IMG/VR virus record: IMGVR_UViG_3300047311_000469
Location: 1 to 31,365 of that record
Direction: 5' to 3' (one strand)
DNA from: a virus
DNA length: 31,365 nt
How positions within the stretch are numbered: position 1 is the stretch's first letter; the number at the start of each line of letters is the position of its first letter. The position numbers and the translations under genes were made by a program. Below the pieces are notes generated by a model. It was given only the letters and a program-made list of their open reading frames with translations, had not been told where the DNA came from and ran no database searches. Shown here piece by piece: positions 2,090 through 31,365 of this stretch.

Positions 2090-2096
2090 AGATTCC

Positions 2097-3092: not shown

Positions 3093-3098
3093 AAAATT

Positions 3099-3641: not shown

Positions 3642-3663
3642 CGCCGCCTTCGGCGATGTCAAC

Positions 3664-3939: not shown

Positions 3940-3963
3940 ATTGCGGGAAACGGCGTGTCACCC

Positions 3964-3994: not shown

Positions 3995-4000
3995 CTTTAA

Positions 4001-6766: not shown

Positions 6767-6769
6767 GGG

Positions 6770-7105: not shown

Positions 7106-7224
7106 CTGGCACTCAGGCGAGTGTCAAAACGAAAGTGCTTTGACTTGGACGGCGCCGGAGTCTTACGACTGGCGCGCGGGAACGTATCCGACCGATCGCC
7201 CTGCGCGTTCAGTCGGGGTTAGGA

Positions 7225-7259
7225 CCGCGTGGTCCGGCAGCTGCCGGACTTTTACGCGG
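7225..7259 (-). repeat. Dispersed palindromic element after the large terminase gene
   Basis: Arms CCGCGT (7225-7230) and ACGCGG (7254-7259) enclose a perfect 18-base palindrome (GTCCGGCAG/CTGCCGGAC) followed by TTTT. It begins three bases beyond the terminase stop on the minus strand. The copy at 30303-30337 is its near-twin with two differences. Read on the plus strand it looks like an intrinsic terminator (GC hairpin plus TTTT), opposite to local transcription. Confidence 0.85.
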
Positions 7260-7262
7260 CCG

Positions 7263-10488: not shown

Positions 10489-10523
10489 GCCAGCGCGCCA
10501 ATGTCAGCACCGAATGTTGGATT

Positions 10524-11099: not shown

Positions 11100-11542
11100 A
11101 AGAGCCCGTTCTCCTTGAATGAATAGCTCGCGCCTTCGGCGACGATGACGTGGTCGATTAGCGGAATGCCGAGAAGAGCGCCGCAAGCGCGCAGTCGATC
11201 GGTGACTGATTTATCAGCGTCACTCGGAGTCGGCGCGCCGACCGGATGATTGTGCATCAGGACTATTGCAAAGGCGGCGTTAGCGACTGCCGCGCGAAAG
11301 ATTTCGCGCGGATAAGCGATCGTCTCGGTGATCGAGCCAATACTAACTAGATTGAACGCCTGAACGTCGCCGTCTGCGTTGAGCAGAAGCGCGACTAGAT
11401 GCTCTTTGTCGGCGTCAAACCAAGCTTGTTTCGCGATTACGTCTCTCCAGTACGTGTGCGCAGTCGTTGGAGTCGCTCCGTGCCCGCTTGGCACTTCGCA
11501 GACGCGCATGACTTTTACCATGTAAGCTTTTGCGTCGTTCAT
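11096..11542 (-). CDS. radC: RadC-like JAB/MPN-domain protein
   Basis: A 148-residue protein consisting essentially of the RadC JAB domain. HNHP (97-100) with PSDAD (106-110) provides the metal-binding set, and ALLGIPLIDHVIV is the conserved following strand. LVALLLNADGDV is the family's early LLN strand. The N-terminal helix-hairpin-helix domain of chromosomal RadC is absent, as is usual for phage and plasmid versions. The biochemical role of RadC proteins is not firmly established; a DNA-repair role is disputed. The start ATG (11540-11542) is five bases from the stop of the VWA gene. Confidence 0.88.
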   Translation of the reverse strand: MNDAKAYMVKVMRVCEVPSGHGATPTTAHTYWRDVIAKQAWFDADKEHLVALLLNADGDVQAFNLVSIGSITETIAYPREIFRAAVANAAFAIVLMHNHPVGAPTPSDADKSVTDRLRACGALLGIPLIDHVIVAEGASYSFKENGLL

Positions 11543-11547
11543 GGCAG

Positions 11548-12135
11548 TTAGGCCGCGATTGCTGCGTCTGTGAGGAACAACGTGACGGTCTCGAGCATCG
11601 TCACGCAAGCGGGGTCGATCACTGCTTCGCCGCCATATTGCGCGAGGTCGCGGCAGAACTGGACTTCATGCGACGCTCCGTTCCCGCAGTAGTAAACATC
11701 GATGCGGCAGAGCATCGTGCGCGCGATCGCCAGCGCTCGCTCCGCGCTATTGGGCTGCCCGTCGGTGATAACGACGATATGCTCTGAATTGAGTTTTGCG
11801 GCCTCGCGCAAAGCGCCATGCAGCGAAGTTCCGCCGCCTAGTCGCATCGTGCCAAATCCGCCGCGGGGCGCTAACTCATTGAATGACTCCCAAGTCGTTA
11901 CACGCTCCGAACGATCAGCGAACAATATCACCGCCGCGTTTTCGAGTTTGCTCACCACGCGCAACATGCAATCGCGCATCGCGTCGAATTTAGTTTTGCC
12001 GGTCGCTCTAACGATGTCGCACATGCTTCCCGACACATCGCCGATGATTACTTTCTCGGCTTTCTCGTGAGTGAGCGCCGCGTTGAATGCCTGAATGGCC
12101 TTGTCTTCGTTTTCTGTACTGATTAGTGGTTTCAT
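11548..12135 (-). CDS. von Willebrand factor A-domain protein with intact MIDAS
   Basis: The 195-residue protein is a single VWA domain. The metal-ion-dependent adhesion site is complete: D33-x-S35-x-S37 (GDVSGSM), Thr-103 in GGGTSLHGAL, and Asp-125 in ITDGQPN. There is no signal peptide, so it acts in the cytoplasm. VWA proteins bind partner proteins through the metal site, commonly with AAA+ ATPases or chaperones. The nearby J-domain, RadC and RarA-C-like genes make a protein-assembly or replication-accessory role plausible (inference). The ATG at 12133-12135 follows an A-rich stretch without a canonical ribosome site. Confidence 0.85.
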   Translation of the reverse strand: MKPLISTENEDKAIQAFNAALTHEKAEKVIIGDVSGSMCDIVRATGKTKFDAMRDCMLRVVSKLENAAVILFADRSERVTTWESFNELAPRGGFGTMRLGGGTSLHGALREAAKLNSEHIVVITDGQPNSAERALAIARTMLCRIDVYYCGNGASHEVQFCRDLAQYGGEAVIDPACVTMLETVTLFLTDAAIAA

Positions 12136-12162
12136 TTTTTTGGGTTCTTTCTGTTTTTGGGT

Positions 12163-12675
12163 TTACTGCGAAAACTTTTCGAGAAGCTGATAGGCGCCGT
12201 TCACTGCCTGCGCCGCTTCGAGCGCGCCGCCCTTATCTGGGTGATGAATGCGAACGAGCGAAATCCAAGCCGCGCGCACGATCGACTTTTGCAGCGGCGG
12301 TTTTGGCTTGATTCCCAGCACTTTGGCTGCGAGCGCTAAGCTTTTGCAGCGCGTCGCGAGAAAGTCGGAGAACGTTTTCGGGATTTTAGGGGCGCGTTTG
12401 GCCCGGACTTTCTGGGGCGTCACTGGCGTTGGTGTCGGCTTTGGGGCCGCTGGCGTTACTCCGGCTGCGGCAGCGGATGCGAACTCCGCCGGCGAATTGA
12501 AAACTCTGGTCGCTATCGCGCTCCAGGAAGTTTTCGATTTGGAGCGACTGCCGAAGCGGTACCGATAAGCGCCCGTTTTTTTGCAGACGTAAATCTCGCC
12601 TGCCATCCACTCGGCGAACGCCGGCCGCAATTCTTTTAGATCGGTCGGGCTGATCCTGACTGCATTGCTCTGCAT
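12163..12675 (-). CDS. Protein with C-terminal J domain
   Basis: A 170-residue protein with three parts: a compact N-terminal domain (about 1-70), a Pro/Thr/Ala-rich linker (70-95), and a C-terminal J domain (about 100-170). The J domain carries HPD at 145-147 followed by KGG and an AYQLLEKF helix. J domains stimulate Hsp70 (DnaK) ATPase; phages use them to recruit host chaperone to replication or assembly complexes. The unusual C-terminal placement resembles viral and adaptor J proteins rather than DnaJ itself. It precedes the VWA gene by 27 bases. The N-terminal domain, with EIYVCKKTGAYRYRFGSRS, is unrecognised and may define the client. Confidence 0.75.
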   Translation of the reverse strand: MQSNAVRISPTDLKELRPAFAEWMAGEIYVCKKTGAYRYRFGSRSKSKTSWSAIATRVFNSPAEFASAAAAGVTPAAPKPTPTPVTPQKVRAKRAPKIPKTFSDFLATRCKSLALAAKVLGIKPKPPLQKSIVRAAWISLVRIHHPDKGGALEAAQAVNGAYQLLEKFSQ

Positions 12676-12887
12676 TGGTTGTTTGCCGGTTTGGTCGGTT
12701 GGCTCATCCGTGTTTCTTGTTTTTCTTTCCTGAACAAATTTCGAATCCGGCAGTCGTGACGTCGCGGGAATTCAATCGTTAGGCTGAAAATAAAGTTCAG
12801 CCCATTTTTCGTGGCGCTCGCCGTTTGGCAGGGCCGATGCTGACAAGCTGCCGCTGTGCCCCGCCTTTGATTATTGTATTACAACAA
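12676..12887. other. Intergenic stretch with two inverted repeats
   Basis: Bases 12676-12887 hold no convincing gene. GGCTGAA (12782-12788) and TTCAGCC (12796-12802) form a 7-base-pair hairpin. TTGATTATTGT (12867-12877) and ACAACAATCAA (12881-12891) form an 11-pair AT-rich stem with a three-base loop. The latter covers the stop codon of the gene at 12888-13235 and pairs fully as RNA on the minus strand if one G-U is allowed. It may be an operator or transcript-end structure; there is no U-run for a classic terminator. Confidence 0.5.
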
Positions 12888-13235
12888 TCAAGTGACGACG
12901 GGCTTGGTCTGCCTGAATAAGAAATGCGCGCGGTGCTCCGGAGTGTCCGCGAGTTTTAGCAGCTGACATTCCTGGCGGTATTGTTCCGGCGCGATCTTGT
13001 GCATCACTACTTTAATGCCGCGCCTCCGCGCATCGCGCGCTGCAGCTTTCAGAATCATGCGATGAAACGCCAGCGGCCGACCCGGGATGAAGAAATCGCA
13101 ATCTTCATCGCTGACGAAATCCGGCATCAGTAAGATTTTCGCGTGCCGGTCCGCGTCTTTGAGCGCGTCAGCAATCCACTGTAATGCGATCGCGCGAGCA
13201 TCCTGCCAGGTCACGCCGGCAGTGTGACGGTTCAC
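12888..13235 (-). CDS. Unknown protein, 115 residues
   Basis: I do not recognise this protein. It is helical at the N-terminus (DARAIALQWIADALKDADRH) with a central beta part (KILLMPDFVSDEDCDFF) and a basic KAAARDARRRGIKVVMHK segment. The overall alpha/beta pattern could be a small nucleotide- or nucleic-acid-binding domain (inference). GTG at 13233-13235 is chosen because it overlaps the preceding stop as GTGA; a second GTG at 13212-13214 is possible. The longer ATG-initiated frame up to 13424 covers the neighbouring gene and is rejected. Its stop lies in the 12867-12891 inverted repeat. Confidence 0.6.
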   Translation of the reverse strand: MNRHTAGVTWQDARAIALQWIADALKDADRHAKILLMPDFVSDEDCDFFIPGRPLAFHRMILKAAARDARRRGIKVVMHKIAPEQYRQECQLLKLADTPEHRAHFLFRQTKPVVT

Positions 13236-13417
13236 ACGGCGGGAATCCAGCCGATATCGGCCAAGTACTTGAAACGTTCTTTTTGTTTGCCGAGCGCGAT
13301 CGTGATGTCGCGTGTTTCGTCGTCGATCGTGACCTTCGTGATCTTGTCGATCTTTTGGTCGCGGTAAAACCGGACCAGAAGCGGATCCGGCAGCTTGAGT
13401 GCCTCTTTGTTCGGCAT
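13232..13417 (-). CDS. Small unknown protein, 61 residues
   Basis: ATG at 13415-13417 opens a 61-codon frame ending in a TGA that overlaps the next start. The product is mixed-charge, with a beta-hairpin-like VTIDDETRDITIAL and an aromatic KYLADIGW end. No family is recognised. Its stop-start overlap with the following gene and codon use like its neighbours support it as real. Confidence 0.55.
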   Translation of the reverse strand: MPNKEALKLPDPLLVRFYRDQKIDKITKVTIDDETRDITIALGKQKERFKYLADIGWIPAV

Positions 13418-13484
13418 GTTTCATTGGCCTGTTTTTTAGCGGGTCGGCTCATCCCGGTTTGAAGTTGTGGATCGTTCTATCGAA

Positions 13485-14237
13485 TCAGAAGGGCAAGTTC
13501 AACGTTATTTTCTGCACGCCGGCGTAATCGCGCTTCCGCGTTCCGGAGTGACCGCCGAAGTTGAAGACGTCTCCCCATTTTCTGCGGAGAAGATCGACGT
13601 CGTTCTTTTCGGTCGCGCTGGTCCGGAATGCAGCCTGGCCGCCTTTGCCGGTGAATGTTTCTTTCTGGCAAAATGTGTACCGGCAATTTTTGAAACACAT
13701 TCGATGGCGATGCGCGTTCGCAGCAGCGATGTCGAAATCGTTCTTCGCGACGATGCGCGGATCGAATCGCAAGCCGTGGCCGGTGCGAAATCCCATCGCG
13801 CAGCCGTTGATGTAGCCGGTGAGCATGAACGGCTTCAGGCCGGTGTAATAACGCAGGGCGCCGTTGCTCGCTTCCCAGCCGAAATAAAACGCGCCGATGT
13901 CGCGCGCCATGATGAACGTCGCGCGAATGATCTCCTCGATCAGTAGCGGATCCCGGATCGTCGATTCTTCACCTGGCTCAACGAAGCAGCGCTGCAGACT
14001 GGCGATATCGTCATCGACTAACACGATTGCTTCGCGGTCGCGCACGTGGTCGAAGATCCAATTTAACTTTGGAGTTAAACCTTTGACGGAATCCGGATGC
14101 GTGAGCACGCGGCCGGCGCCGACGATCTTCGCGTAATCAGCGCGCTGACTTGCCGGGACGCACACGACGGCGCTCGGGACGAGCCGATGCGTCGTCATCG
14201 TTGCCGCCCTGGACATCGATGGAATGACGATTTTCAC
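13485..14237 (-). CDS. TET-associated-type glycosyltransferase (GT-A fold)
   Basis: The 250-residue protein begins with MKIVIPSMSRA, the first strand of a GT-A glycosyltransferase. A VLVDDDI motif follows with the metal/sugar-nucleotide aspartates at 75-77, and a later KNDFDIAAA motif near 165 probably contains the catalytic acid. Spacing and motifs resemble the TET/JBP-associated glycosyltransferases described in phages, which add sugars to oxidised or hydroxymethylated DNA bases; ordinary family-2 transferases are an alternative. The start is a GTG (14235-14237) that lies 101 bases inside the upstream ParB-like gene. Partner enzymes making a hydroxymethylated base are not seen in this window, so DNA glycosylation is an inference. 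Confidence 0.6.
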   Translation of the reverse strand: MKIVIPSMSRAATMTTHRLVPSAVVCVPASQRADYAKIVGAGRVLTHPDSVKGLTPKLNWIFDHVRDREAIVLVDDDIASLQRCFVEPGEESTIRDPLLIEEIIRATFIMARDIGAFYFGWEASNGALRYYTGLKPFMLTGYINGCAMGFRTGHGLRFDPRIVAKNDFDIAAANAHRHRMCFKNCRYTFCQKETFTGKGGQAAFRTSATEKNDVDLLRRKWGDVFNFGGHSGTRKRDYAGVQKITLNLPF

Positions 14238-14943
14238 GAATTGATTTCAGGAAACGCTTGAACGGGACCGCGCGGCCAATGCCGATGCCGGTCTTTTTGT
14301 ACGATCGCTCGGTTTCCACGCCGCAGAGTGTTTGCAGAAACGCGAAGTCGCTCTCGTTATCGGTGAAGACGAGAACGTAATCGTATCGCTCATTCAACTT
14401 CGCAGTGATTGAAAACTCGCCGTCGACCGCGGTTGAGTCGCGCATGAGCTTGTCGAGCTCGTCCTGGTTGAATGCAGAGAGCTCGATATCGGACGCGTCG
14501 AGTTCAGAGAGCAGCTTCGCGAGCTTGTCGTTATCGGTGATCGACATCGCCGGCAGTTTGTTGTCGGCGAGAAGATCGCGGCGCTCTTCAGCGAGCGATT
14601 TGTATTGCTGATATTCGACCGGCACGAGCCAACCGCGACGTTTCGCCATTAGCCAGGCTCCGTGGCCTTTCGTAATGAAACCGGAGCGGCGCGAAACGAC
14701 GACGGCTTTCCGCCAACCATTTCCTCTTCGTTTGTCTGCAGGCCTCTGCCACAAGCGGCCGCCAGAAACAATCCCGGTACCGGCAATCACGCGCTCATAA
14801 GCATCGAGTTGCTTCGCAGGATGTTCGCGATGCGCGTTGTCCGGATGCGCACGCAAATTGTCCGGATGTTCAAGCTTGTCGAATTTGCAGTACACCGGAA
14901 TCCCTGTCGCGAGGATCGGTTTCTTTCGACGAGCAAATTTCAT
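14137..14943 (-). CDS. ParB/sulfiredoxin-fold protein
   Basis: A 268-residue protein with a ParB-like N-terminal domain. VYCKFDKLEHPDNLRAHP is the opening strand, KAVVVSRRSGFITKGHGAWLMAKRRG corresponds to the GHGR-type phosphate-binding motif, and VPVEYQQ is the last strand. An acidic helical region and a C-terminal beta part (YDYVLVFTDNESDFAFLQTL) follow. Phage proteins of this type commonly sit beside DNA methylases or base-modifying enzymes and are usually not partition proteins. Here the neighbour is a glycosyltransferase whose start lies inside this gene. The C-terminal part resembles a nucleic-acid-modification specificity region only loosely. Confidence 0.75.
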   Translation of the reverse strand: MKFARRKKPILATGIPVYCKFDKLEHPDNLRAHPDNAHREHPAKQLDAYERVIAGTGIVSGGRLWQRPADKRRGNGWRKAVVVSRRSGFITKGHGAWLMAKRRGWLVPVEYQQYKSLAEERRDLLADNKLPAMSITDNDKLAKLLSELDASDIELSAFNQDELDKLMRDSTAVDGEFSITAKLNERYDYVLVFTDNESDFAFLQTLCGVETERSYKKTGIGIGRAVPFKRFLKSIRENRHSIDVQGGNDDDASARPERRRVRPGKSAR

Positions 14944-15117
14944 GGGAAGTTCGTTTTGGGATTATTCGTATGAAAATGAAGAGTGTCGTAAAGACCCCTG
15001 GTGGGGGGCTGCACCGTAAAAGTTATCTCCGAGGGGGCTGCTGTAAGCCTGCGTGGCAGGCCACCGTGGCACGCAGAACGCGTCCAGTGAGTCATGTGTA
15101 TCTCCGTGCGGGCGTCT
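14944..15117. other. Leader region with nested hairpins before the ParB-like gene
   Basis: This 174-base gap has no convincing gene. GCCTGC-GTG-GCAGGC (15047-15061) is a perfect small hairpin, and a wider alternative pairs CTGCGTG (15049-15055) with CACGCAG (15070-15076). GGGGGCTGC occurs twice (near 15004 and 15034). Closer to the ParB-like start, a TTTACG and TACGAA pair spaced 16 bases apart on the minus strand could be a weak promoter. The wider inverted repeat resembles the dispersed palindromes only at its arms and lacks their TTTT. Confidence 0.35.
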
Positions 15118-15735
15118 TCATTGCCACGGATCATTAGCACTGTCGCCATACAACCACTTCAGGAACGAATAGAATTCGCCGAGCTCCTGCCTGGCTTCCT
15201 CGAAGTCCACGAGTTGCAGCTGTGAGGTGTGACGCTGTTTGATTCGCGCGTATTCGTTGGCGACGTTCAAGAAGTTGGCGAGTCGTGGGAACTTTTTGTT
15301 GCCCTTGTGTTCGGGCTGCACTTTCTCAGGCACAAGGCTGATCGCGTGCTTGCGGATCGTATCGAATTTGAACGAGCTAAGTATCTCGAGATCAGGGCCG
15401 GTTAGCGCCACGCGTGGCGCATCCAGAGGCGCGAGAGCCTTTGCGTTCACACTGGCAATCAGCATGTAACGTTGTGCTGTCCGGAGCGCCACGTTGAGCG
15501 GAGCGCAGAAGTTGAACAGCACCCACTCCAGCCAGTCGCCAGATGGAACCAGGTGTTTGCATTTGAGTAAGTGGTGACCACTGACGGCCGCATACCACAG
15601 CGCACTGTTCTGATCAGCGCGCACGATCGCGACCGCGGTTTCTGAGGACTTGTGATACTCGATCGCGCTATTCAGCGCTTCGGTGAGCTCCTCCTTTTTC
15701 TGAATCGTTATCTCTTTTCCTGTGAGTGCTTGCAT
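15118..15735 (-). CDS. DUF3102-like phage protein
   Basis: The 205-residue protein carries, at about residues 50-95, the DUF3102-type pattern. HLLKCKHLVPSGDWLEWV corresponds to the G..L..aK..v.HG.W..W segment, followed by LRTAQRYMLIA, the RTAQ.YM helix. Proteins of this type occur widely in phages and mobile elements beside ParB or replication genes, and their role is unknown. The C-terminal half is helical and charged, with no recognised domain. ATG at 15733-15735 overlaps the end of the preceding gene by 28 bases. Confidence 0.65.
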   Translation of the reverse strand: MQALTGKEITIQKKEELTEALNSAIEYHKSSETAVAIVRADQNSALWYAAVSGHHLLKCKHLVPSGDWLEWVLFNFCAPLNVALRTAQRYMLIASVNAKALAPLDAPRVALTGPDLEILSSFKFDTIRKHAISLVPEKVQPEHKGNKKFPRLANFLNVANEYARIKQRHTSQLQLVDFEEARQELGEFYSFLKWLYGDSANDPWQ

Positions 15736-18137: not shown

Positions 18138-18517
18138 GCCGCGACCCTTTCCCACCAGCCCGCGTGATTCTGTATAATCGCGCGCAGCCTTTTTTCATCG
18201 CGCTCATCTTCGCAACCGTTGGCGGCCACGTATTGCAGAAAATCGCGCTCCGGCCCAGCCAGCGAATCGTTAAACAGCTCCACTGGAAAACCCGGCCCTT
18301 CTTGGTCGCGTTGCCGGCTCAACATTTTCTCGAGATTCTCGATTTCAGATTCGAGGTCCGAACGCTCGCTTCTCAGATCCTCGATATCGTCCTCGATTCG
18401 CTCGACGCGCTGTCGCTTCTCTGCAATCTGTTTTTCGACTGGAAACGGTTGCCGTCGCACGAGCCCGATAGCCGGTTCGATTCCTGGAAGAAGCGGTAAT
18501 TGCACCACGTCGCTCAT
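18134..18517 (-). CDS. Coiled-coil protein, 127 residues
   Basis: ATG at 18515-18517 overlaps the Gp37/Gp68 gene stop as ATGA. The middle of the protein (about residues 28-72) is a long heptad-patterned coiled coil (KRQRVERIEDDIEDLRSERS onward). The C-terminal domain contains AGPERDFLQYVAANGCEDE and ends AGWWERVAA. I do not recognise the family. Tight overlap on both sides suggests it works with, or is dosed with, its neighbours. Confidence 0.6.
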   Translation of the reverse strand: MSDVVQLPLLPGIEPAIGLVRRQPFPVEKQIAEKRQRVERIEDDIEDLRSERSDLESEIENLEKMLSRQRDQEGPGFPVELFNDSLAGPERDFLQYVAANGCEDERDEKRLRAIIQNHAGWWERVAA

Positions 18518-19530
18518 CGCGCGACCTCCGCTGTAGCCGCGGCGCTGTGCGCCGTCGGAAATTCATTCCACGAGCGATCATCTAGCAGCCGGCCAGCGCG
18601 TTTTTTCCCGACGCGCATCATGTATTGCGCGCCGTGCTGATCGCACTTCGCATACGTGTGTGCGCCTGCGCACGAAAATAGATGTTCGTGATAACTATCT
18701 GCTGGAACCCACTCACCCCACTGCTTAAAGAAAAACGGAACGTCGGCCTGGATGCATTGATCGCGTAATGACCGCGCCCAATCAGGATGCATCGGACGCG
18801 CGCCGGGCCCGGACTCGCCGCCGACGATCACCCAATGGATCCCGTAGCCATTCTTACCCGGCGTCCACCCGCAGTCGTTAGGGCAGCCCGGGCATCCCTT
18901 GCATAAGGTCACCGGCCCGAGCAACGGCTCGCAGCTCAGAAACCGAACTGCCGCCGGCGTCTCGAGCAACAACGGAATCCGCTCATCCGCGCGCTTCTGA
19001 TCTTCGACACTCACGCCGAGCCATACGTTTTCCGGTGCGCCCCCGTAATGCAGCCAATGAAAAAGCCAGTACCACGCCGCGAGTGGTTCCGTCAGCGAAT
19101 TCTCGACGCGCCCTATCCTGTTACGAAAATTCTCCGGCCGCTTCGTCAGCAACAACCAGTCCAGATTCGGCGTTGCATGAATCAGCGCGAGCAAATCAGC
19201 CAGCCATTCAACCGGAACCTCAGAATCGAGCCAATCAGCCAGCGACGCGCAGAAAACTCGCGGCTTAACGAAATTGTGAGGAACGCCAGCAGGAACCGAA
19301 TGTAACTCCTGAATCCTGCGCTGTTCTGCTTCCCGATTCCACTTCATCGGTTGCTTCCAATAACTCGCGCTGGTGCGATGCCGCTCTTTCCCCTTCCCCC
19401 ATTGCGCCCAGCCGCGCCGTTTCGATTCCCCTTCCGCGTAGCAATGCACGCAGCCAGGTGAAACCTTCGTGCAGCCGATCCACGGATTAAACGTGTGATC
19501 GCACCACTCGATTTTTGAATCGGCGCCCAT
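18514..19530 (-). CDS. Gp37/Gp68 family protein (DUF5131), radical-SAM-like
   Basis: The 338-residue protein shows the hallmarks of the phage Gp37/Gp68 family. SKIEWCDHTFNPWIGC opens the protein, with Cys-20, Cys-27 and Cys-30 in GCTKVSPGCVHCYAE. LDWLLLTKRPENF, NVWLGVSVEDQ, RFLSCEPLLGP, WVIVGGESGPGARPM and PFFFKQWGEW follow in the order typical of the family. The Cys triad suggests an iron-sulfur cluster and radical-SAM-like chemistry, but no substrate is established. GCPGCPNDCG adds an extra metal-binding insert. Its ATG (19528-19530) follows a tiny gene by two bases. Confidence 0.88.
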   Translation of the reverse strand: MGADSKIEWCDHTFNPWIGCTKVSPGCVHCYAEGESKRRGWAQWGKGKERHRTSASYWKQPMKWNREAEQRRIQELHSVPAGVPHNFVKPRVFCASLADWLDSEVPVEWLADLLALIHATPNLDWLLLTKRPENFRNRIGRVENSLTEPLAAWYWLFHWLHYGGAPENVWLGVSVEDQKRADERIPLLLETPAAVRFLSCEPLLGPVTLCKGCPGCPNDCGWTPGKNGYGIHWVIVGGESGPGARPMHPDWARSLRDQCIQADVPFFFKQWGEWVPADSYHEHLFSCAGAHTYAKCDQHGAQYMMRVGKKRAGRLLDDRSWNEFPTAHSAAATAEVAR

Positions 19531-19532: not shown

Positions 19533-19619
19533 CTATTGCTTGCCTCCGTCATCATCCCGATCGGGCAGCGGATCTTCGATGCAAATGGGCGTCGCTTCTT
19601 TCATCGGATGCAACGTCAT
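19533..19619 (-). CDS. 28-residue microprotein between the HerA-like and Gp37/Gp68 genes
   Basis: ATG at 19617-19619 overlaps the ATPase stop as ATGA, and the frame ends with TAG at 19533-19535, two bases before the next start. The peptide is acidic (ICIEDPLPDRDDDGGKQ at its end). GGAGG near its end lies 12 bases before the Gp37/Gp68 ATG. It fills the whole gap between two real genes in the style of all other junctions here, so it is either a microprotein or a translational-coupling leader. Confidence 0.5.
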   Translation of the reverse strand: MTLHPMKEATPICIEDPLPDRDDDGGKQ

Positions 19620-21409
19620 GCCGCACCAAAGAGCGTTTCGCTCGGCCAGATCGTCTCGCCATTGATCTCCACCAGCTCGCGCGCAGCCAGGCGCTGAATG
19701 TAGGTATTCCGCGTTGATCGCTTATAGCAGGTCTCTTCTCCGAGCTGCTCACGAGTCACGCCGATCTCAGGCCGCGCGAGCACGGCCGCAAAAATTTTAG
19801 ATTCACCTTCCGGCAACTTCTGCAGCCAATACCGCTGCAGCTCCACACCAGTCGGCAACGGCTGATAATCGCTGCCGATCCAATCAATCCCCGCTTCCGT
19901 GATCGCGAACCGTTCGCCGTTTTGCGTCACGAAGCCTGCTGCGAGCAACCGCTGCAGATAAGTATTGCGCGTCGATCGCTTGTAACCCGTCAACGTCGTC
20001 AGCTGCTCACGCATCACGCCATTCGGATGCTGCGCAATCGCGATCGCGCACCGCCGCTCGCCAATGCCTAACGAAACGTCCGTGTCGCCGCTGGCGGGCG
20101 GTGATCGAACGCTACTCACACTCGCTCGACTCGTTGGCCTTCCCGCCAGCGTGCGTTCCGGAATTCGCGGCCTGGGGAGCGGTCGCCGCGGCGACCTGGC
20201 CAGTGGTGTCACGCCGTCGCGAACTTTATTGATGACCTGCAAAATCGATTGCATCGATTCATCGATCTTCAGCAATCGATCGGCGTACGGCGCTATCGCC
20301 GCAGCCATCCGTTTTTCGAAACCTTCATTAAGCGCCGCGAAGTCACACAATTTCCCGAACCGATCGATCTGCGAATCTTTCAGAATCGGCTTCTCGATAA
20401 TTTCGACGCGGGCCGCTTTATCGCTCGTGAGCTTTTGCAATGTCTGACTGCGCTCGCGCTCGAGCGCAATGATCTTTCGCTTCAGCTCTTTCGGATCATT
20501 CGCTTTCGCCTGCTCGATCGTCGCCGCCATCTTTTCGCGAAGCGATGCCAGATCCACCGGCTTCAGATGTTTCGGTGCGAAAACCTTCTCGCCCACTTTC
20601 GGCGTCGCGCTCGAATCGAACGTCTCGCGCTTGCGCACCTTCACCTTCTTAAAAATTTCCAGCCAGCCAGGCGACCAAAACCACGCTTCACCTATTCGCA
20701 GCGTCGGCAACGATTCCACGAAGGCCGTCCACTGCTCCGCTGTGAAATCGTGCGCGTGCACCCAGGCCTCGACCGCTTCCCGGTCCTGCGGCGATATCGT
20801 CCGCAGACAAACCAGCACTTCGATCTGTGTGAGAACGTTCTTATTCAGAACCGCCGCGCGCTGCGTCACCAGCGTCACGCCCAGGCCGCGGGCCCGGCCG
20901 CGCCTAACGATATCTTCCATCGCGCCTAACAACCGTTCCCCGCCCTCGCCGCGCATCGTCTTTTGCGGCGCGAACGCGTCCGCTTCATCCACGATCAAAT
21001 GCAGCGGAGCGCGGTTTCGTCGGTAAAGCGTTTCTGCGAATGCCGTCATAAACCGGATCATTTCGCCTTTCCGGAACGACGACAGATCGAGCACCACCGA
21101 GCGGCCGTGTTCCACAACGAAATCCGCGACGAGCTCGCCACCCGTCGATTCCAGCGGCACGTCGCCGTGCTCGCCGCCCATCACGATTATCTCGAGCCCT
21201 TCGTGCTTCCCATCGGCCGACGCGCGCAAACCCCACCACACGCCGATTGGATCCACGACCACGACCTGCAGCGACGCCTTCAACATTTCCTCCGCCATCA
21301 CGCTTGCTGTGTACGTTTTCCCAACGCCGCGCTTCGCCAGGATCGCGAACGTTTGTGTCACCGCCTCTTTCGGCAGCGACAGATCCGATGAGATATGCAG
21401 CTTGCTCAC
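19616..21409 (-). CDS. HerA-like (DUF87) ATPase with two C-terminal winged helices
   Basis: A 597-residue protein. Its FtsK/HerA-type ATPase core has Walker A at about 25-32 (AKRGVGKT), Walker B LHLIVDEAD at about 136-144, and a VTQR sensor segment near 181-184. A charged linker with coiled-coil pattern (about 330-420) and a Pro/Arg-rich hinge (about 430-460) follow. Two homologous winged-helix units then occur, each holding YKRSTRNTY followed by (L/I)QRL. HerA-like ATPases are hexameric DNA translocases, usually partnered with a nuclease; none is adjacent. GTG at 21407-21409 is chosen because GGAGG lies eight bases upstream and it overlaps the previous stop as GTGA. Possible roles: DNA translocation, recombination or defence-related (inference). 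Confidence 0.82.
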   Translation of the reverse strand: MSKLHISSDLSLPKEAVTQTFAILAKRGVGKTYTASVMAEEMLKASLQVVVVDPIGVWWGLRASADGKHEGLEIIVMGGEHGDVPLESTGGELVADFVVEHGRSVVLDLSSFRKGEMIRFMTAFAETLYRRNRAPLHLIVDEADAFAPQKTMRGEGGERLLGAMEDIVRRGRARGLGVTLVTQRAAVLNKNVLTQIEVLVCLRTISPQDREAVEAWVHAHDFTAEQWTAFVESLPTLRIGEAWFWSPGWLEIFKKVKVRKRETFDSSATPKVGEKVFAPKHLKPVDLASLREKMAATIEQAKANDPKELKRKIIALERERSQTLQKLTSDKAARVEIIEKPILKDSQIDRFGKLCDFAALNEGFEKRMAAAIAPYADRLLKIDESMQSILQVINKVRDGVTPLARSPRRPLPRPRIPERTLAGRPTSRASVSSVRSPPASGDTDVSLGIGERRCAIAIAQHPNGVMREQLTTLTGYKRSTRNTYLQRLLAAGFVTQNGERFAITEAGIDWIGSDYQPLPTGVELQRYWLQKLPEGESKIFAAVLARPEIGVTREQLGEETCYKRSTRNTYIQRLAARELVEINGETIWPSETLFGAA

Positions 21410-21588
21410 AGTTTTTCCTCCGCCGGCTGTGCTGCAACGTCCGCTTCGTGGCTCTTTTTGATGATGCGGACCGCTTCCTCCTGGACCGCGATCTTGCGCT
21501 TGCGGATCCCGATATTTTGCATCTGAACAACGAACCGCTCGCCACTGATCACCAGCAGCGTGCAGCAAATAACGAGAAGCATTTTCAT
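21406..21588 (-). CDS. Small membrane-anchored protein coupled to the HerA-like ATPase
   Basis: A 60-residue protein with an N-terminal hydrophobic segment (about residues 3-15: MLLVICCTLLVIS) and a charged cytoplasmic-type tail with VQEEAVRIIKKSHE. ATG at 21586-21588 starts six bases after the upstream stop. Its TGA overlaps the ATPase GTG start, so the ATPase is likely translated from the same ribosomes. It may tether a partner to the membrane (inference). Confidence 0.6.
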   Translation of the reverse strand: MKMLLVICCTLLVISGERFVVQMQNIGIRKRKIAVQEEAVRIIKKSHEADVAAQPAEEKL

Positions 21589-26075: not shown

Positions 26076-26851
26076 GCCGTCGCTGGTTCCTTTCCCTCCG
26101 CGCACATTTTGCGCACCAGATCTTGTGCCCCGAGCTCAAGCGCCGCTTTGAGCGGCGCGAATTTTTTCTCGAATATTGGCCGCGCGATTTCCTTCGCCTT
26201 CGCGAGCGCTTCCCAATAATCGAGCTTTCTCCAATCGACGACCGCAGCGACGCCCGCATCGACGACCGCAGCGACGCCCGCATCGACGACCGCAGCGACG
26301 CCCGCAGCGACGACCGCAGCGACGCCCGCAGCGACGCCCGCAGCGACGCCCGCATCGACGCCCGCAGCGACGCCCGCAGCGACGCCCGCATCGACGAGTT
26401 TCTTACGAGCCGCAGCCCTTAATTCCCACGCCTCATTGCGAGCTTTGCGAATATTCTCGAGTGTCGGATTCTCCCTGAGTAGATCGGCTGCGGCGTCCAA
26501 GCCGGCCAGCGATAGCGCCGCCGGCGCCGCATCGCGCACCACAAAATCACGGATCATTTCCAGCCGGTGCCGTTCCACCGCGCGCGTCGATCGCGTACCA
26601 ACAAGCAGCGGCACTAACGGCTTCAAAAGTCGATTCCGTTCTGCATCGCTCGGCAACCGATCGTTCCAGCTGATCATAAACGAAGTGATTACCGGACACG
26701 CGCATACCGGATGATCGCTGTGCGGCTCGCCTGCGATCCAGGCCACCGCCTCCATCACGCAGACGCCTTGGGCGCGCGCCCCGTGGTTACCCTTCCTAAG
26801 CTCGATCCCATCCAGCCCGAGCAGCGGAAGTGTTTCCGGCAATTGGCTCAT
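26072..26851 (-). CDS. Unknown early protein with a long tetrapeptide repeat
   Basis: A 259-residue protein. The N-terminal domain contains [18 protein letters not shown] followed by [19 protein letters not shown] and [15 protein letters not shown], a conserved block I have seen in uncharacterised phage and actinobacterial proteins. A helical [12 protein letters not shown] then leads to 13 tandem four-residue units (Ala/Gly/Val/Asp) encoded by 26236-26391, and a C-terminal amphipathic domain ([20 protein letters not shown]). The Cys and His residues in the conserved block suggest a metal site. ATG at 26849-26851 overlaps the previous stop. Confidence 0.62.
26236..26391 (+). repeat. 12-base tandem repeat, 13 units
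   Basis: Thirteen consecutive units of CGACG(A/C)CCGCA(G/T) with variation only at positions 6 and 12. The unit is a multiple of three, so copy-number change lengthens or shortens the encoded Ala-Gly-Val-Ala/Asp helix or linker without frameshift. Confidence 0.95.
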
Positions 26852-27060
26852 ATCCGTGCAATCCGCGATCGCGCCCGTAAGAAGTTTCTATTCTGGAGAT
26901 CTGCGGTAATCGGCGCAATCTTTGGACGATTCCAAGCCGCCGTCTCCACCTCGTGAATCGCTTTCTTCGAGCTGCGGAGCGCCGCTTTGAGATCCTCCAC
27001 ACAGCCGTAGCCAGCGTGCGCAGCCATCCGCTCAAGTCGTTGTTCGCCTTCCGCGCTCAT
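26848..27060 (-). CDS. Small unknown protein, 70 residues
   Basis: ATG at 27058-27060 overlaps the stop of the preceding small gene as ATGA; a longer frame upstream is that gene's shadow. The product is helical with AHAGYGCVEDLKAALRSSKKAI and a basic C-terminus with [11 protein letters not shown]. No family is recognised. Confidence 0.5.
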   Translation of the reverse strand: MSAEGEQRLERMAAHAGYGCVEDLKAALRSSKKAIHEVETAAWNRPKIAPITADLQNRNFLRARSRIARI

Positions 27061-27230
27061 GCCGCCACCCGCCTCTCCTGCCTCCGCTGAGCTTTCTGCA
27101 GCCGCTCCAGCTCCTCGATGCAGCGTTTTTCCCATTCAGCCGCCGCGATTATAACGTCCGGATTATTGCTTTTTTCCAATCCACGCGCGTAATCGCGCAT
27201 CGCTTCGGCTACCTCTATTTTTGCTTCCAT
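27057..27230 (-). CDS. First gene of the leftward operon, 57 residues
   Basis: ATG at 27228-27230 lies after a purine-rich GAAAGAGAAA and 22 bases below the likely leftward promoter -10. The product is almost entirely helical and charged (VAEAMRDYARGLEKSN; AEWEKRCIEELERLQKAQRR), a probable coiled coil. Being the first product of the early operon it could be a Cro-like or accessory regulator, but it has no visible helix-turn-helix. No family is recognised. Confidence 0.55.
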   Translation of the reverse strand: MEAKIEVAEAMRDYARGLEKSNNPDVIIAAAEWEKRCIEELERLQKAQRRQERRVAA

Positions 27231-27252
27231 TTTCTCTTTCTTTTGTTACACA

Positions 27253-27280
27253 GATTTATCTGCTAAACAGAAGCTGTCAA
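27253..27280 (-). promoter_or_regulatory. Leftward early promoter
   Basis: On the minus strand TTGACA (27275-27280) and TAAATC (27253-27258) are spaced 16 bases apart, upstream of the leftward operon. The -10 is imperfect. The palindrome CAGAT-TT-ATCTG (27251-27262) overlaps the -10 and is a candidate operator. Confidence 0.5.
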
Positions 27281-27317
27281 CAAAAAGTTTGACTTTTCTT
27301 TAGATATTCGCTAAACG
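27262..27317. promoter_or_regulatory. Divergent control region: rightward promoter and operator-like repeats
   Basis: On the plus strand TTGACT (27289-27294) with TAAACG about 17 bases further could drive the repressor gene. GCTAAAC occurs at 27262-27268 and again at 27311-27317, each preceded by an AGAT-containing AT-rich stretch, so each overlaps a promoter -10. These are natural candidates for repressor binding sites. The two -35 boxes lie back to back, eight bases apart. Confidence 0.45.
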
Positions 27318-27339
27318 CATGTATTCAGGAAGAGCAAGA

Positions 27340-27759
27340 ATGAGCCAATTTTCCAACCAATTGCAGACCTCGATAGAGGCAAACGGACTTACCCAGACCG
27401 AGATCGTCGAGAAGATAGGTGTTTCCCAGGGCCAGATGAGCCGGTACGTAAACGGCGAGAATCGCCCCGAGCCACAGGTGCTTGAGAAATTGTGCGCCGT
27501 TTTCCCTAAAAAAGATCAGACATCGCTCCTCCTCGCGTACCTCGAAGATGACGTTCCCGATTCCCTCAAGAATCTAATAGCTATCGAGCCAAAATCGGCG
27601 GTGCCGCGGGTTGGCGAAGACTCTCCGGTCTATCGGTCGCGGATGCCGAAGAGGCTTCGCGAAGCATACGATCATCTGGGCGCCGCCGCTTTAGAGCACG
27701 CGTCGATCGCAAAAATAATCATTAACACCAGCGACCTCCAGAAAGGCGGCGCGGGATGA
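27340..27759 (+). CDS. XRE-family repressor
   Basis: The 139-residue protein has a lambda-repressor-like helix-turn-helix at about residues 4-55 (LTQTEIVEKIGVSQGQMSRY followed by VNGENRPEP). A short C-terminal region follows, ending in a helical YDHLGAAALEHASIAKIII. There is no LexA-like peptidase domain, so induction would not be by RecA-stimulated self-cleavage of this protein. ATG at 27340-27342 is preferred (AGGAAG upstream); an in-frame ATG at 27319 would add seven residues. Placed opposite the leftward early operon beside a divergent promoter region, it is the likely lysogeny repressor. Confidence 0.85.
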   Translation: MSQFSNQLQTSIEANGLTQTEIVEKIGVSQGQMSRYVNGENRPEPQVLEKLCAVFPKKDQTSLLLAYLEDDVPDSLKNLIAIEPKSAVPRVGEDSPVYRSRMPKRLREAYDHLGAAALEHASIAKIIINTSDLQKGGAG

Positions 27760-27769
27760 ACGAGAAACA

Positions 27770-27952
27770 ATGATCACGGCTGTCGTCGTCTGTTTAATTG
27801 TCCTGTTATTGATCTTGATCGACGGCCGTCTCGCGCGCATGAAAAAAATCGAGCGCGAGATACTCAAAGAAATCAAGACTTCTAACGACCGCCTGAACGA
27901 AGCCAACAAGGCGCTGCAGTGGATGGTCGACAACTCGCCGCCCCGACAATGA
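27770..27952 (+). CDS. Small membrane-anchored coiled-coil protein
   Basis: A 60-residue protein with an N-terminal hydrophobic helix (about residues 2-17, ITAVVVCLIVLLLILI) and a charged coiled coil (MKKIEREILKEIKTSNDRL). The start is ten bases after the repressor stop, and its TGA overlaps the next start. The layout recalls small membrane proteins expressed from prophages, possibly for exclusion; no family is recognised. Confidence 0.6.
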   Translation: MITAVVVCLIVLLLILIDGRLARMKKIEREILKEIKTSNDRLNEANKALQWMVDNSPPRQ

Positions 27953-28275
27953 AGACCCTTTTCAAATTCTTAGGCGCTATCGCGTTGATTGTCTTGATAA
28001 TTGCAATCGTCGCGAAGGTTCAGAACGAAAGCGAAACGCGCGCAACACAACAGATCGCCACTGAGCAGCGCGAAAACGAGGACGCGATTAAACAGCGCCA
28101 TGTGCTAGTCGGCATGAGCGCGGCCCAAGTTCGCCAGGCTTGGGGCGAACCAAAGCACGTCATTCGCACCACCGCCGAGAGCCACGAGTACGAAGAATGG
28201 TCCTACGGCGCGCACGCGACCCTTTCATTCGTCGACGGCGTCTTCAAATCCGGAACTCGCGACGACGGCAAATGA
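27949..28275 (+). CDS. Membrane-anchored BamE/SmpA-like domain protein
   Basis: ATG at 27949-27951 overlaps the previous stop as ATGA. The 108-residue product has an N-terminal membrane anchor (about 4-24), a charged linker (about 25-48), and a small domain. Its sequence VLVGMSAAQVRQAWGEPKHV followed by HEYEEWSYG and LSFVDGVF matches the SmpA/OmlA (BamE) pattern GMS..eVr..wG.P...W.Yg...l.F.dG. No lipobox Cys is present, so it stays anchored in the inner membrane facing the periplasm. Sitting between repressor and integrase it is probably expressed in lysogens and may alter the host envelope or block superinfection (inference). Confidence 0.7.
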   Translation: MKTLFKFLGAIALIVLIIAIVAKVQNESETRATQQIATEQRENEDAIKQRHVLVGMSAAQVRQAWGEPKHVIRTTAESHEYEEWSYGAHATLSFVDGVFKSGTRDDGK

Positions 28276-29540
28276 AACGCGGCAAGTTCGCCAACGGACA
28301 AATCCGCCGTGGTGGACCGATCCTCGTAAGAATCGGCAACGTCACGATCCCAATTTACGCGTTGCGCGATGGCCGTTTCGCCGTCGTGTACCGTCCGGCG
28401 CCGAAGGCGAAACGCAAAGTTCTCCCGTACACACTTCTTTCGAAAGCGAAACAGGTCGCCCAGGAGAAAGCGATCGCGATTTCAAACGGCCGCGGCGAGG
28501 CCGTCGATTTCACTGCTGCCGATCGCGAAATTTATTTGCATGCAAAAAACGTCGTCGCGCCATTCGGCATCGGTATTACTTCCGCACTCGAGCAATGGTC
28601 CGAATGGAAAGCGCGCGGATCCGCCGGCGCGCGCCGTGAGCGCGTTCCGGAGATCGTCGAGCAACTGCTCGTTTCGAAAGCCGATCACAAACTTTCCGCG
28701 AAATACATGGGCGCTCTCAAACGCGATCTGCGCGCGTTCGCCTCGAAATTTCAGCAGCACATCGACGAAGTCCGCGCGTTGCCGATCGAGAATTATTTGC
28801 GCGATCTAGGAGTCGGCGATCGCCGGCGTAACAACATTCGCGACGTCATCGTCACTTTGTTTCTTTTCGCAAAGGAGCACGGCAACCTTCCCCAGGACCG
28901 CATCACCGAAGCTGAGAAAGTAAAACGCATCGATCTCGAGCACGGCGCGCCGCGGATCTACACGCCCGCGCAGCTGCGCGTGATACTCGAGCACATTTCT
29001 CCCGAATGGATCGATTGGATTTGCTGCCAGGCGTTCGCTGGCATTCGTCCGGAAGAAGCAGGCAGACCGCACATCAGCAAAAAAACCGGCGAACGCCGCA
29101 AATTGATGTGGACCGATTTCCTGTGGGACGAACACCAGATCCGGATCGCCGCGTTGATTTCAAAAACTGGACGCGATCGCTACATCGCGATGAACGAAAC
29201 TCTTCTCGCCTGGTGCGGCCATCACCGCGGCGAAACCGGCCCGGTCTGCGTGTACGATCGCCCCGATCGCGAGACAGGTCGCCTCGGCGAGCTCCTCGGA
29301 TTCGGTTGGATCCCGGATGGTCTCCGTCACAGTTACGCCAGCTACTGGCAATCGCTCCACAAAGACATGGCCAGGCTCAAAGAAGAAATGGGCAACAGCG
29401 AGCAAGTGAACCGCCGCTTTTACTATCATCCCCAGCCCGCCGCCATGGCGAAAAAATGGTGGGCAGTACTTCCCGACGAACACGATCTCGCCGGCAGCCG
29501 AAAAGTTATGCAGATGCCACTAGGCATCGCATTTCGATGA
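28272..29540 (+). CDS. int: Tyrosine recombinase (integrase)
   Basis: The 422-residue protein has an N-terminal arm-binding part, a SAM-like core-binding domain (about 98-205) and a C-terminal catalytic domain. Catalytic positions: Arg-259 (AFAGIRPEEA), Lys-298 (ISKTGRDRY), Arg-352 in DGLRHSYASYW, and Tyr-384 in NRRFYYHP nine residues after the usual His/Trp site. Asp-349 replaces the usual first His of HxxR, and Asn-375 the second His. ATG at 28272-28274 overlaps the upstream stop. It is followed by a small gene and then the attachment region, so it should integrate the phage into a tRNA gene. Confidence 0.87.
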   Translation: MKRGKFANGQIRRGGPILVRIGNVTIPIYALRDGRFAVVYRPAPKAKRKVLPYTLLSKAKQVAQEKAIAISNGRGEAVDFTAADREIYLHAKNVVAPFGIGITSALEQWSEWKARGSAGARRERVPEIVEQLLVSKADHKLSAKYMGALKRDLRAFASKFQQHIDEVRALPIENYLRDLGVGDRRRNNIRDVIVTLFLFAKEHGNLPQDRITEAEKVKRIDLEHGAPRIYTPAQLRVILEHISPEWIDWICCQAFAGIRPEEAGRPHISKKTGERRKLMWTDFLWDEHQIRIAALISKTGRDRYIAMNETLLAWCGHHRGETGPVCVYDRPDRETGRLGELLGFGWIPDGLRHSYASYWQSLHKDMARLKEEMGNSEQVNRRFYYHPQPAAMAKKWWAVLPDEHDLAGSRKVMQMPLGIAFR

Positions 29541-29716
29541 AGCCGGTCGACTGGACGAAGCTTAGTTTTGAAGAGCGAATGAAGCTGCGCGCCGAACGCC
29601 GCGCCAGTCCCGAATACAAGCACGAGCTACAAATGCGGCTCGAAGCTATCGAACGCCGCCGACGCCATCACGAGATTTGGCGAGCGATTCGATTATTCGA
29701 AGGAAGCCAAAGTTAA
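29537..29716 (+). CDS. Small basic protein after integrase
   Basis: ATG at 29537-29539 overlaps the integrase stop as ATGA; 59 residues. It is highly charged and helical (WTKLSFEERMKLRAERRAS; RLEAIERRRRHHEIWRAIRLF). The position directly between integrase and attachment site and the basic charge suggest a recombination directionality or DNA-bending factor, but it lacks a recognisable excisionase fold. Its last codons overlap the left arm repeat at 29711. Confidence 0.6.
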   Translation: MKPVDWTKLSFEERMKLRAERRASPEYKHELQMRLEAIERRRRHHEIWRAIRLFEGSQS

Positions 29717-29730
29717 CAAAAAGTGAACAC
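29711..29730 (+). repeat. Attachment-region arm repeat, left copy
   Basis: AGTTAACA, four bases, GTGAACAC. The same 16 defined bases recur at 29898-29917. Each copy itself contains two half-sites of the form AGTTAACA / GTGAACA about 11 bases apart, as in integrase arm-type sites. Confidence 0.75.
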
Positions 29731-29843
29731 TCAAAGATCCATTTCTTTGCGCGTGTTTGTTTTGTGATTTCGGGTGCCGGCGCGATCTCGCTCTGAAAAC
29801 CGACACGGCCAGACAAAATCCCGAATCTAATCGCTCCCAAAAA

Positions 29844-29871
29844 TCGGGTTCAAGTCCCGCCCCGAGCACCA
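29844..29871 (+). other. attP core: 3' end of a tRNA gene
   Basis: TCGGG-TTCAAGT-CCCGC is a T-arm with the standard TTCRANY loop (29849-29855). It is followed by a seven-base acceptor half, CCCGAGC, then A and CCA at 29869-29871. The matching 5' acceptor half and D-arm are absent upstream, so this is a tRNA 3' fragment, not a gene. Integration here would rebuild a host tRNA. The homologous core may extend upstream toward 29818. One T-stem pair is mismatched. The 157 bases between 29717 and the core's loop hold no other gene. Confidence 0.8.
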
Positions 29872-29897
29872 ATGAAAGCGCATCGTTTTCGCTGAGA

Positions 29898-29917
29898 AGT
29901 TAACAGTTCGTGAACAC
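29898..29917 (+). repeat. Attachment-region arm repeat, right copy
   Basis: AGTTAACA, four bases, GTGAACAC, matching the left copy at 29711-29730 and lying on the other side of the tRNA core. Confidence 0.75.
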
Positions 29918-29923
29918 CATTTT

Positions 29924-29985
29924 TGGGTGAAGTTTACCTAACGGCTTCCCAGGCGGCGCGCGATCCTGGGTGAAGTTTCCCTAAC
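29924..29985 (+). repeat. Pair of 19-base direct repeats next to attP
   Basis: TGGGTGAAGTTTACCTAAC (29924-29942) and TGGGTGAAGTTTCCCTAAC (29967-29985) differ at one base and start 43 bases apart, about four helical turns. They are candidate binding sites for integrase, excisionase or a host bending factor. No gene is present from 29717 to 30029. Confidence 0.8.
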
Positions 29986-29989
29986 TTTT

Positions 29990-30009
29990 CGCGCGCAGCT
30001 CAGCGCGCG
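29990..30009. terminator. GC-rich hairpin downstream of the lysis-side genes
   Basis: CGCGCGC (29990-29996) pairs with GCGCGCG (30003-30009) around a six-base loop, 20 bases beyond the stop of the last leftward gene on this side. No U-run follows on the minus strand, so termination is only a possibility. Confidence 0.35.
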
Positions 30010-30029
30010 AGGGCGTAATCAGGATCGCA

Positions 30030-30257
30030 TCACCAGCCCCTTGAACCGTTGCGGCGGACGTAGAAGCTCAGGTCCGGCCACCAGGTCTGCCGTTTCATTA
30101 TCTCGATCACTCTGAAGGATTCGCCGCGCTCGGCCGCGGTCACGATCGCTTTTGCATCGGTGGCTTTCATCGACACTGAAACAGAAGCCTCTTCGCCTTC
30201 GCGCACGCAGCTTTCTTCCAGCGTATCCAACGCCCAAGCTTTAGTAGCGGTGCTCAC
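30030..30257 (-). CDS. Small unknown protein at the end of the lysis-side operon
   Basis: GTG at 30255-30257 (GGGG four bases upstream) gives 75 residues; a TTG at 30297-30299 would add 14 residues but lies in a palindromic-element remnant. The product contains WALDTLEESCVREGEE, SVSMKATDAKAIVTAAERG and a C-terminal KRQTWWPDLSFYVRRNG. No family is recognised. It is the last leftward gene before the attachment region. Confidence 0.45.
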   Translation of the reverse strand: MSTATKAWALDTLEESCVREGEEASVSVSMKATDAKAIVTAAERGESFRVIEIMKRQTWWPDLSFYVRRNGSRGW

Positions 30258-30282
30258 CTTTCCCCGCGCGGACGAGTCAACG

Positions 30283-30337
30283 CCGCGTAAAAGAGCCAAA
30301 GGCTGCGTAAAAGTCCGGCAACTGCCGGACCACGCGG
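30283..30337 (+). repeat. Palindromic element (30303-30337) with an adjacent partial copy
   Basis: The complete copy has arms CTGCGT (30303-30308) and ACGCGG (30332-30337) and a GTCCGGCA-A-CTGCCGGAC-type hairpin; it differs from the 7225-7259 copy at two positions. Directly upstream, CCGCGTAAAAGAGCC (30283-30297) with GGCT after an AAA loop is a second copy lacking its right arm. On the minus strand the complete copy is a GC hairpin followed by TTTT, eight bases after the stop of the gene at 30345-30560, so it may work as an intrinsic terminator. Confidence 0.7.
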
Positions 30338-30344
30338 CTGGGAT

Positions 30345-30560
30345 TTAGCTCGCGATCGGGTGATCAAGTAGCCGATTCAATTCGCGATTCCGCTCTTCAG
30401 TAGCGGCAATTTCTTCAAGCCGTTCCAGGAACAGTTTCGCGGACGTGCCGAGGATCGGATTGGAAGTGTGCTGAAACTCGACGAAGCCGTTCTCGTAATC
30501 GTAAACAGCACCGCACTCGCTACACCAGCCGCCTTCAAGTTTGTGCTCATGCTCGGACAT
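30345..30560 (-). CDS. Small unknown protein with a CxxC motif
   Basis: ATG at 30558-30560 starts 71 residues: a His/Glu start, WCSECGAVYDYENGFVEF with one CxxC pair, and a C-terminal coiled-coil helix (FLERLEEIAATEERNREL). A zinc site would need His residues of the N-terminus (SEHEHK). No family is recognised. It lies 12 bases after the holin-like gene in the same operon. Confidence 0.55.
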   Translation of the reverse strand: MSEHEHKLEGGWCSECGAVYDYENGFVEFQHTSNPILGTSAKLFLERLEEIAATEERNRELNRLLDHPIAS

Positions 30561-30572
30561 AGAAACTTAGAT

Positions 30573-30794
30573 CTATAGAGCGAGAAAGCCGAGAAGTAGC
30601 AGGATCGCTCCGATCGCGATGATGAGCAGCGCGTATCTCACGTCGAACCTGTCGGGCGCGTGGATGCCGAAACGTATCGCATACCGGGCCCGGCGGACGA
30701 GCTCGGAGTGAAGGGCGTTGTCGATGTTGGCCAGGGGAACGGTTTGCGCGAAGTTGATGAGGAACCAGGTGAGCAATCGCGCGGTGTGATTCAT
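30573..30794 (-). CDS. Holin-like small membrane protein
   Basis: ATG at 30792-30794 overlaps the end of the lysozyme-like gene in a TGATGA junction. The 73-residue product has a moderately hydrophobic N-terminal segment (RLLTWFLINFAQTVPLA), a polar middle with basic residues, and a strong C-terminal transmembrane helix (YALLIIAIGAILLLLGFL). Size, topology and position right after a putative peptidoglycan hydrolase fit a holin or other lysis membrane protein. No specific holin family is recognised. Confidence 0.5.
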   Translation of the reverse strand: MNHTARLLTWFLINFAQTVPLANIDNALHSELVRRARYAIRFGIHAPDRFDVRYALLIIAIGAILLLLGFLAL

Positions 30795-31365
30795 CACACC
30801 CCGACGAGAAATGTTTGGTACTCGGCGACGGCCGGGCGCGACAACCACGGGTAAATGGAGTGCTCCTGGCCGCGGAGGCTGGATCGAATCTTGAGGCGCT
30901 CGTCGCCTTTGCGCAGCGGCCCGTTGTGCATCGTGTTGCCGCGCATGAGTCGCGCAGAAAATTCAAAGGCTAACGGGTGGTTGAATTTCATCGCCTGCTG
31001 AAACGCAATACCGTTGTCGATGTTGGCTCTGCTCAGCAGTGCAACCAGATCGGCTCTATTGTCGCGCGCATCGTACGAGACCTGAAACACGCCGGCCTCT
31101 GAATTTTCCGGTGTGTCGTCGCCAAGTCGCGAGGTATCGACTCCCTCAGAGAAGATCCAGCTCGACTCGAAGCCGGCGAGCACGCGCTGCACCTCGAGCA
31201 TCACTGCTATGCGGTGAAATACATCCGAATATGGCCCGAGCTCTAGGAAAACTTTGTTGTAGATGTCGGCGGTGCCGACCATCGCGTTGCGCTCGAAGAT
31301 CGCGTAATCCGCGGTGCGCGCCCAGGCGATTTGTTCGGTTAGAAAAGAATCGGGCGCTCTGCCCT
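30794..31365 (-). CDS. Putative phage lytic enzyme, start beyond the right edge
   Basis: The frame is open from the window edge to the TGA at 30794-30796, so at least 189 residues are present and the N-terminus is missing; the ATG at 31280-31282 is internal. Visible motifs are LAGFESSWIFSEGVDTS, ENSEAGVFQVSYDARDN, and a MKFNHPLAFEFSARLMRGN segment. The Glu in GFESSW and the GVFQVS turn recall lysozyme-/transglycosylase-like phage hydrolases. It would degrade peptidoglycan at lysis, with the holin-like protein encoded next. Without the N-terminus the fold assignment is tentative. Confidence 0.5.
   Translation of the reverse strand, partial: GRAPDSFLTEQIAWARTADYAIFERNAMVGTADIYNKVFLELGPYSDVFHRIAVMLEVQRVLAGFESSWIFSEGVDTSRLGDDTPENSEAGVFQVSYDARDNRADLVALLSRANIDNGIAFQQAMKFNHPLAFEFSARLMRGNTMHNGPLRKGDERLKIRSSLRGQEHSIYPWLSRPAVAEYQTFLVGV

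Follow-up and report, generated by a model that had tools for sequence, protein, structure and literature searches.

A probably complete, unrecombined attP with a tRNA-Leu(GAG) core in a circularly mapping phage of soil Verrucomicrobiota

The attP of phage Ms6 has a 26-bp core that corresponds to the 3' end of a tRNA-Ala and includes the T-loop, and the 7-base T-loop has been implicated in strand exchange (PMC1762012). In the Cluster K1 mycobacteriophages CrimD and Adephagia, the core comprises 24 bp of the tmRNA 3' end and has one pair of 11-bp repeats, labelled arm-type, on each side; the arm sequence differs between close phages, and Giles and L5 have direct arm pairs (PMC3203893). In our literature search we found no described phage integration site for the Verrucomicrobiota host group considered here (mostly Chthoniobacterales/Udaeobacter).

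We found that one end of a viral record from IMG/VR (IMGVR_UViG_3300047311_000469) resembles these sites. The window, that is, the whole stretch of DNA analyzed, is the complete record of 31,365 bp, which is classed as linear and is without end repeats. We estimate a probability of roughly 0.93 that a temperate tailed phage of soil Verrucomicrobiota has its complete, unrecombined attP in the region described below. An earlier note had called the attP apparently intact, and this agrees with the exact arms, the 27-nt tRNA core and the phage genes that are reached on both sides by way of a second contig (G001, IMGVR_UViG_3300046517_002301). The arms, the core and its tRNA identity, the circular map and the attR- and attL-like relatives were all read from sequence. 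The features, all on the plus strand, are as follows.

28272-29540, plus strand: tyrosine recombinase (integrase), 422 aa; phrog_1, E=8.2e-12; R259, K298, D349, R352, N375, Y384
29537-29716, plus strand: basic ORF of 59 aa, possible accessory protein; ATGA overlap with the integrase stop; ends inside the P arm
29711-29730, plus strand: putative P arm, on the integrase side, AGTTAACAAAAAGTGAACAC; heptamers at 29712 and 29723, 11-bp period
29824-29832, plus strand: conserved motif on the phage side, AATCTAATC, at -22 from the 23-mer core; candidate for a left core-type site or an accessory site
29845-29871, plus strand: attP core, CGGGTTCAAGTCCCGCCCCGAGCACCA, 27 nt; 3' end of tRNA-Leu(GAG) (T-stem, T-loop, 3' strand of the acceptor, CCA)
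29898-29917, plus strand: putative P' arm, AGTTAACAGTTCGTGAACAC; heptamers at 29899 and 29910
29924-29942, plus strand: candidate accessory-protein (e.g., directionality factor) site, copy 1, TGGGTGAAGTTTACCTAAC, imperfect palindrome
29967-29985, plus strand: candidate accessory-protein site, copy 2, TGGGTGAAGTTTCCCTAAC

We found that the two arms match exactly. A search of the whole window for AGTTAACA-N4-GTGAACAC returned exact copies at 29711-29730 and 29898-29917, as the earlier note had claimed for the two sides of the tRNA core, and no third copy in the window with up to 3 mismatches allowed (0.08 expected). The arm sequence was found nowhere else in the window, nor in G001. Each arm consists of two direct heptamers, GTTAACA and GTGAACA, 11 bp apart, or approximately one helical turn. 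In a pattern-free test for tandem heptamers with an 11-bp period and an 18-mer recurring within 260 bp, the joint pattern was present at the attP, in none of the other 480-bp segments of the window (0/484) and in none of the shuffled sequences (0/1000). Arm-type sites thus appear to be repeated on both sides of the core, as in a complex attP of the lambda type, and the heptamers are probably bound by the integrase. Matches to the pattern GGGTGAARTTTMCCTAA in viral contigs (9) were no more numerous than expected by chance, on our own estimate, for a collection of that size and were set aside.

The core is the 3' end of tRNA-Leu(GAG). The 26 nt at 29846-29871, combined with an anticodon-loop constraint (TTGAGG), recovered 33 loci, and identity extended over at least 29845-29871 in all of them (33/33). 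A 32-nt probe (29840-29871, the core plus the leftward AAAAT) did not match any of 84,980 genomes. Since the longer probe was without a match and the 33 loci were identical from at least 29845, a start at 29818, as drawn originally, is too far left: the tRNA fragment itself was correctly recognized, but the core of 29818-29871 included approximately 27 nt too many on the left. Of 26 loci scanned with ARAGORN, 25 were called tRNA-Leu(GAG), the viral locus L022 included; the sole exception was L040, a contig that ends inside the gene. Because the anticodon constraint determines which isoacceptor the genome scan can recover, L022 is a further basis for the tRNA identity: it is a virus contig found without the constraint, and it contains a whole tRNA-Leu(GAG) with the identical 26-nt end. 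Neither ARAGORN nor Rfam found a tRNA in the window alone, as expected for a fragment. When the 5' part of a host tRNA was joined to the window from 29845, ARAGORN called a complete tRNA-Leu(GAG); the core restores the 3' end of the gene on joining, as in a tRNA-targeting attP. The identity begins in the 5' strand of the T-stem, the T-loop sublocation typified by Ms6.

The 33 loci are nearly all from Verrucomicrobiota, mostly soil Chthoniobacterales/Udaeobacter. Their record titles name Verrucomicrobia and allied groups, except for two "uncultured bacterium"; soil Chthoniobacterales and Candidatus Udaeobacter are frequent among them. The core had been expected to predict the host tRNA target, and with an exact core in 33 loci it does: we infer that the phage inserts into tRNA-Leu(GAG) of Verrucomicrobiota, with the exact host genus likewise a prediction. 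An uncultured soil phage is thereby tied to a host group, and its exact insertion site is named. The same core is present, internally or at one end, in other IMG/VR contigs (L018, L019, L020, L022 and L023), and three contigs (G094, G096 and G097) have an integrase-like match within ~1 kb of it. Because several other phage contigs share the core, the site can be used in searches for prophages in these bacteria. An integrative vector could also be targeted to it.

A tyrosine recombinase gene adjoins the attP, as in other tRNA-targeting sites. The window integrase itself had no Pfam match, whereas homologous proteins from host genomes matched PF00589. R259, K298, R352 and Y384 were invariant in the 11 sequences of the family alignment. 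The positions of the usual catalytic histidines hold D/N349 and N375 in this clade, and the replacement (NxLRH or DxLRH, and GNS) is found in the phages and in most of the host-genome homologues. AlphaFold predicted the structure with low confidence (a mean pLDDT of 39), and the model was inadequate for a fold search; moderate confidence was confined to approximately residues 16-75 (strands and a helix), where an arm-binding domain is expected. A profile search of the PDB found no relative. More distant integrases in host genomes had no tRNA-Leu(GAG) core beside them, and no arm comparison was obtained from these. The 59-aa ORF had no PHROG match and is missing from two related phages, G003 and L021 (described below), in both of which the integrase stop abuts the arm.

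We compared the arms with those of relatives, counting offsets from the 23-mer GGGTTCAAGTCCC[CG]CCCCGAGCA. The att junctions come from relatives only, as no genome was found carrying the window phage itself integrated. G003 (IMGVR_UViG_3300050029_000424) has an integrase ~70% identical to that of the window, the same tRNA core, and a P arm (GGGAACAAAACGGGAACA, heptamer GGGAACA) at -134. Past the core there is a kinase-like ORF with a glycine-rich loop (GKGTFG), which runs to the contig end. We read this junction as a probable attR in a host. Two contigs from host metagenome-assembled genomes, L051 and L083, contain tRNA-Leu(GAG) followed by sequence like the window P' arm, with TGGAACA heptamers at +30 (TGGAACAGATGTGGAACA in L051); L083 has lost one 11-bp unit from this arm. 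Host sequence lies downstream, with an ORF that we read as floA-like. Relative to the empty site in L036, both contigs contain an additional 715 bp inserted precisely at the tRNA 3' end, and no second copy of the core is left. By these features the insert appears to be an attL-like relic of a related element. G093/L021 (IMGVR_UViG_3300041964_000040) has an integrase ~44% identical, its frame broken in the assembly, the same core, and the heptamer GTGACCA. The arms are at -134/+30 in the window and at -133/+30 in L021, so that the P' offset of +30 is common to the window, L021 (GTGACCAGAAAGTGACCT) and L051. In L019, a heptamer pair is found near the same core at other offsets. A fixed arm position with a changing sequence is what would be expected of arm sites that co-evolve with their integrase.

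Two further motifs are found at the attP. The motif at -22 has the same offset in three phages (AATCTAATC in the window and in G003, GATCTAACT in L021) and was not found in host tRNAs. To the right of the P' arm is a direct repeat, TGGGTGAAGTTTmCCTAAC (at 29924 and 29967), a second pair within the attP span that the earlier note had not mentioned. It is confined to the attP in the 43,449-bp circle described below, and the attR of G003 has one inverted copy on the integrase side of the core. The pair may be an accessory site. It is possible, and in our judgment rather unlikely, that the shift of this palindromic pair between the P' and P arms in relatives, together with an integrase clade without both catalytic histidines, reflects a variant integration/excision complex with a putative directionality factor. 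Farther to the right, at 30301-30337, is a 37-bp inverted copy (95% identical) of a sequence at 7225-7261, a GC-rich hairpin GTCCGGCA[AG]CTGCCGGAC plus a T/A run that resembles a terminator.

We found that the window is part of a circular map. G001 is a near-identical virus contig that is circularly permuted relative to the window. Positions 1-5324 of its reverse complement correspond to window 26114-31365, crossing the attP, and are followed by 12,084 bp of new sequence and then by window 1-15421. Identity is 99.9-99.99% apart from a tandem array. The array (26236-26396), which lies within an ORF, consists of 13.4 copies of CGACGCCCGCAG, and its alignment differs between G001 and the window, suggesting a change in copy number. 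In a third assembly, G088 (IMGVR_UViG_3300046642_000616), the 12-kb segment is again joined to window position 1, at 99.99% identity. The three contigs are circular permutations of one map, which closes as a circle of 43,449 bp, as judged by comparing contigs between assemblies. The tail tape measure gene is in the 12-kb segment and the capsid, portal and terminase genes are in the window, all on the strand reading toward the attP. Besides the terminase gene (7263-9491), a second "terminase large subunit" match (19616-21568; phrog_2666, 1.4e-19) may be another ATPase, and, of the window proteins that were scanned, the one at 18514-19530 had the best family match (phrog_2045, function unknown, 4e-106). 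BLAST against annotated phages gave no match. The permuted map would fit a circle, headful-packaged concatemers or tandem prophages, and does not fit a single integrated prophage. That the contig came from a free or circular form had been suggested before, and the crossing of the attP into phage tail genes in G001 supports a circularly mapping, non-integrated phage genome of ~43.4 kb. Phage genes had also been placed on both sides of the attP: the integrase is indeed on the left, but no lysis gene was recognized on the right, where unidentified late-strand ORFs lead to the tape measure gene.

These data bear on three other explanations. The contig could be an integrated prophage or its relic, with the tRNA fragment as one att site and bacterial DNA to its right; the record is linear with the integrase near one end, and G003 is exactly such an attR. 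In the window, however, the core is followed by a P' arm, and the late-strand ORFs beyond it lead through the tape measure gene to the window's own capsid genes (in G001). Bacterial DNA to the right of 29872, which the earlier note had named as evidence against its reading, was not seen among 213 genomes of the host order, which had only short, weak matches (70-90%) to 29872-31365. The permuted contig contradicts this explanation as well, and we consider it the least probable of the three, with very little chance of being correct. A head-to-tail array of tandem prophages, with an attP-like junction between copies, would yield the same permuted contigs, but it needs an extra duplication, and a host junction for the window phage is in no contig; we regard it as highly improbable.

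It is just as improbable, in our view, that the arms are bound as operators by a repressor or another regulator and are not arm sites of the integrase. A gene for an HTH regulator is present at 27319-27759, and the arms were assigned to the integrase from their sequence. Against this, they lie between two convergent gene ends, they occur nowhere else in the window or G001, and they flank the core at offsets that are conserved in phages with differing heptamers.

We therefore favor a complete attP, and it would function as follows. The integrase (28272-29540) would bind the tandem heptamer arm sites on either side of the 27-bp core, and strand exchange would occur in the core, most likely within the 7-base T-loop, TTCAAGT. 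The tRNA gene would stay intact after integration, since its 3' end would then be provided by the phage core. The P arm and the integrase gene would be at the far end, beside the displaced 3' fragment of the tRNA.

This arrangement can be compared with the known systems. The closest relatives, G003 and G093/L021, have the same integrase family, tRNA core and arm offsets as the window; G003 differs in being integrated-like, and G093 in its heptamer. Like that of Ms6, the core is a tRNA 3' end with the T-loop, but Ms6 uses tRNA-Ala of mycobacteria, an unrelated host, and the window phage uses tRNA-Leu(GAG) with an encoded CCA. In the Cluster K1 phages, too, the core corresponds to the end (3') of a structural RNA gene and has paired arm repeats on each side; in contrast to the window, their target is tmRNA and their right-hand pair is inverted. 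Both pairs in the window are direct, like those of Giles and L5. The attP is of the textbook tRNA T-loop type, like those of Ms6, CrimD and Giles, an ordinary mechanism in a different host phylum.
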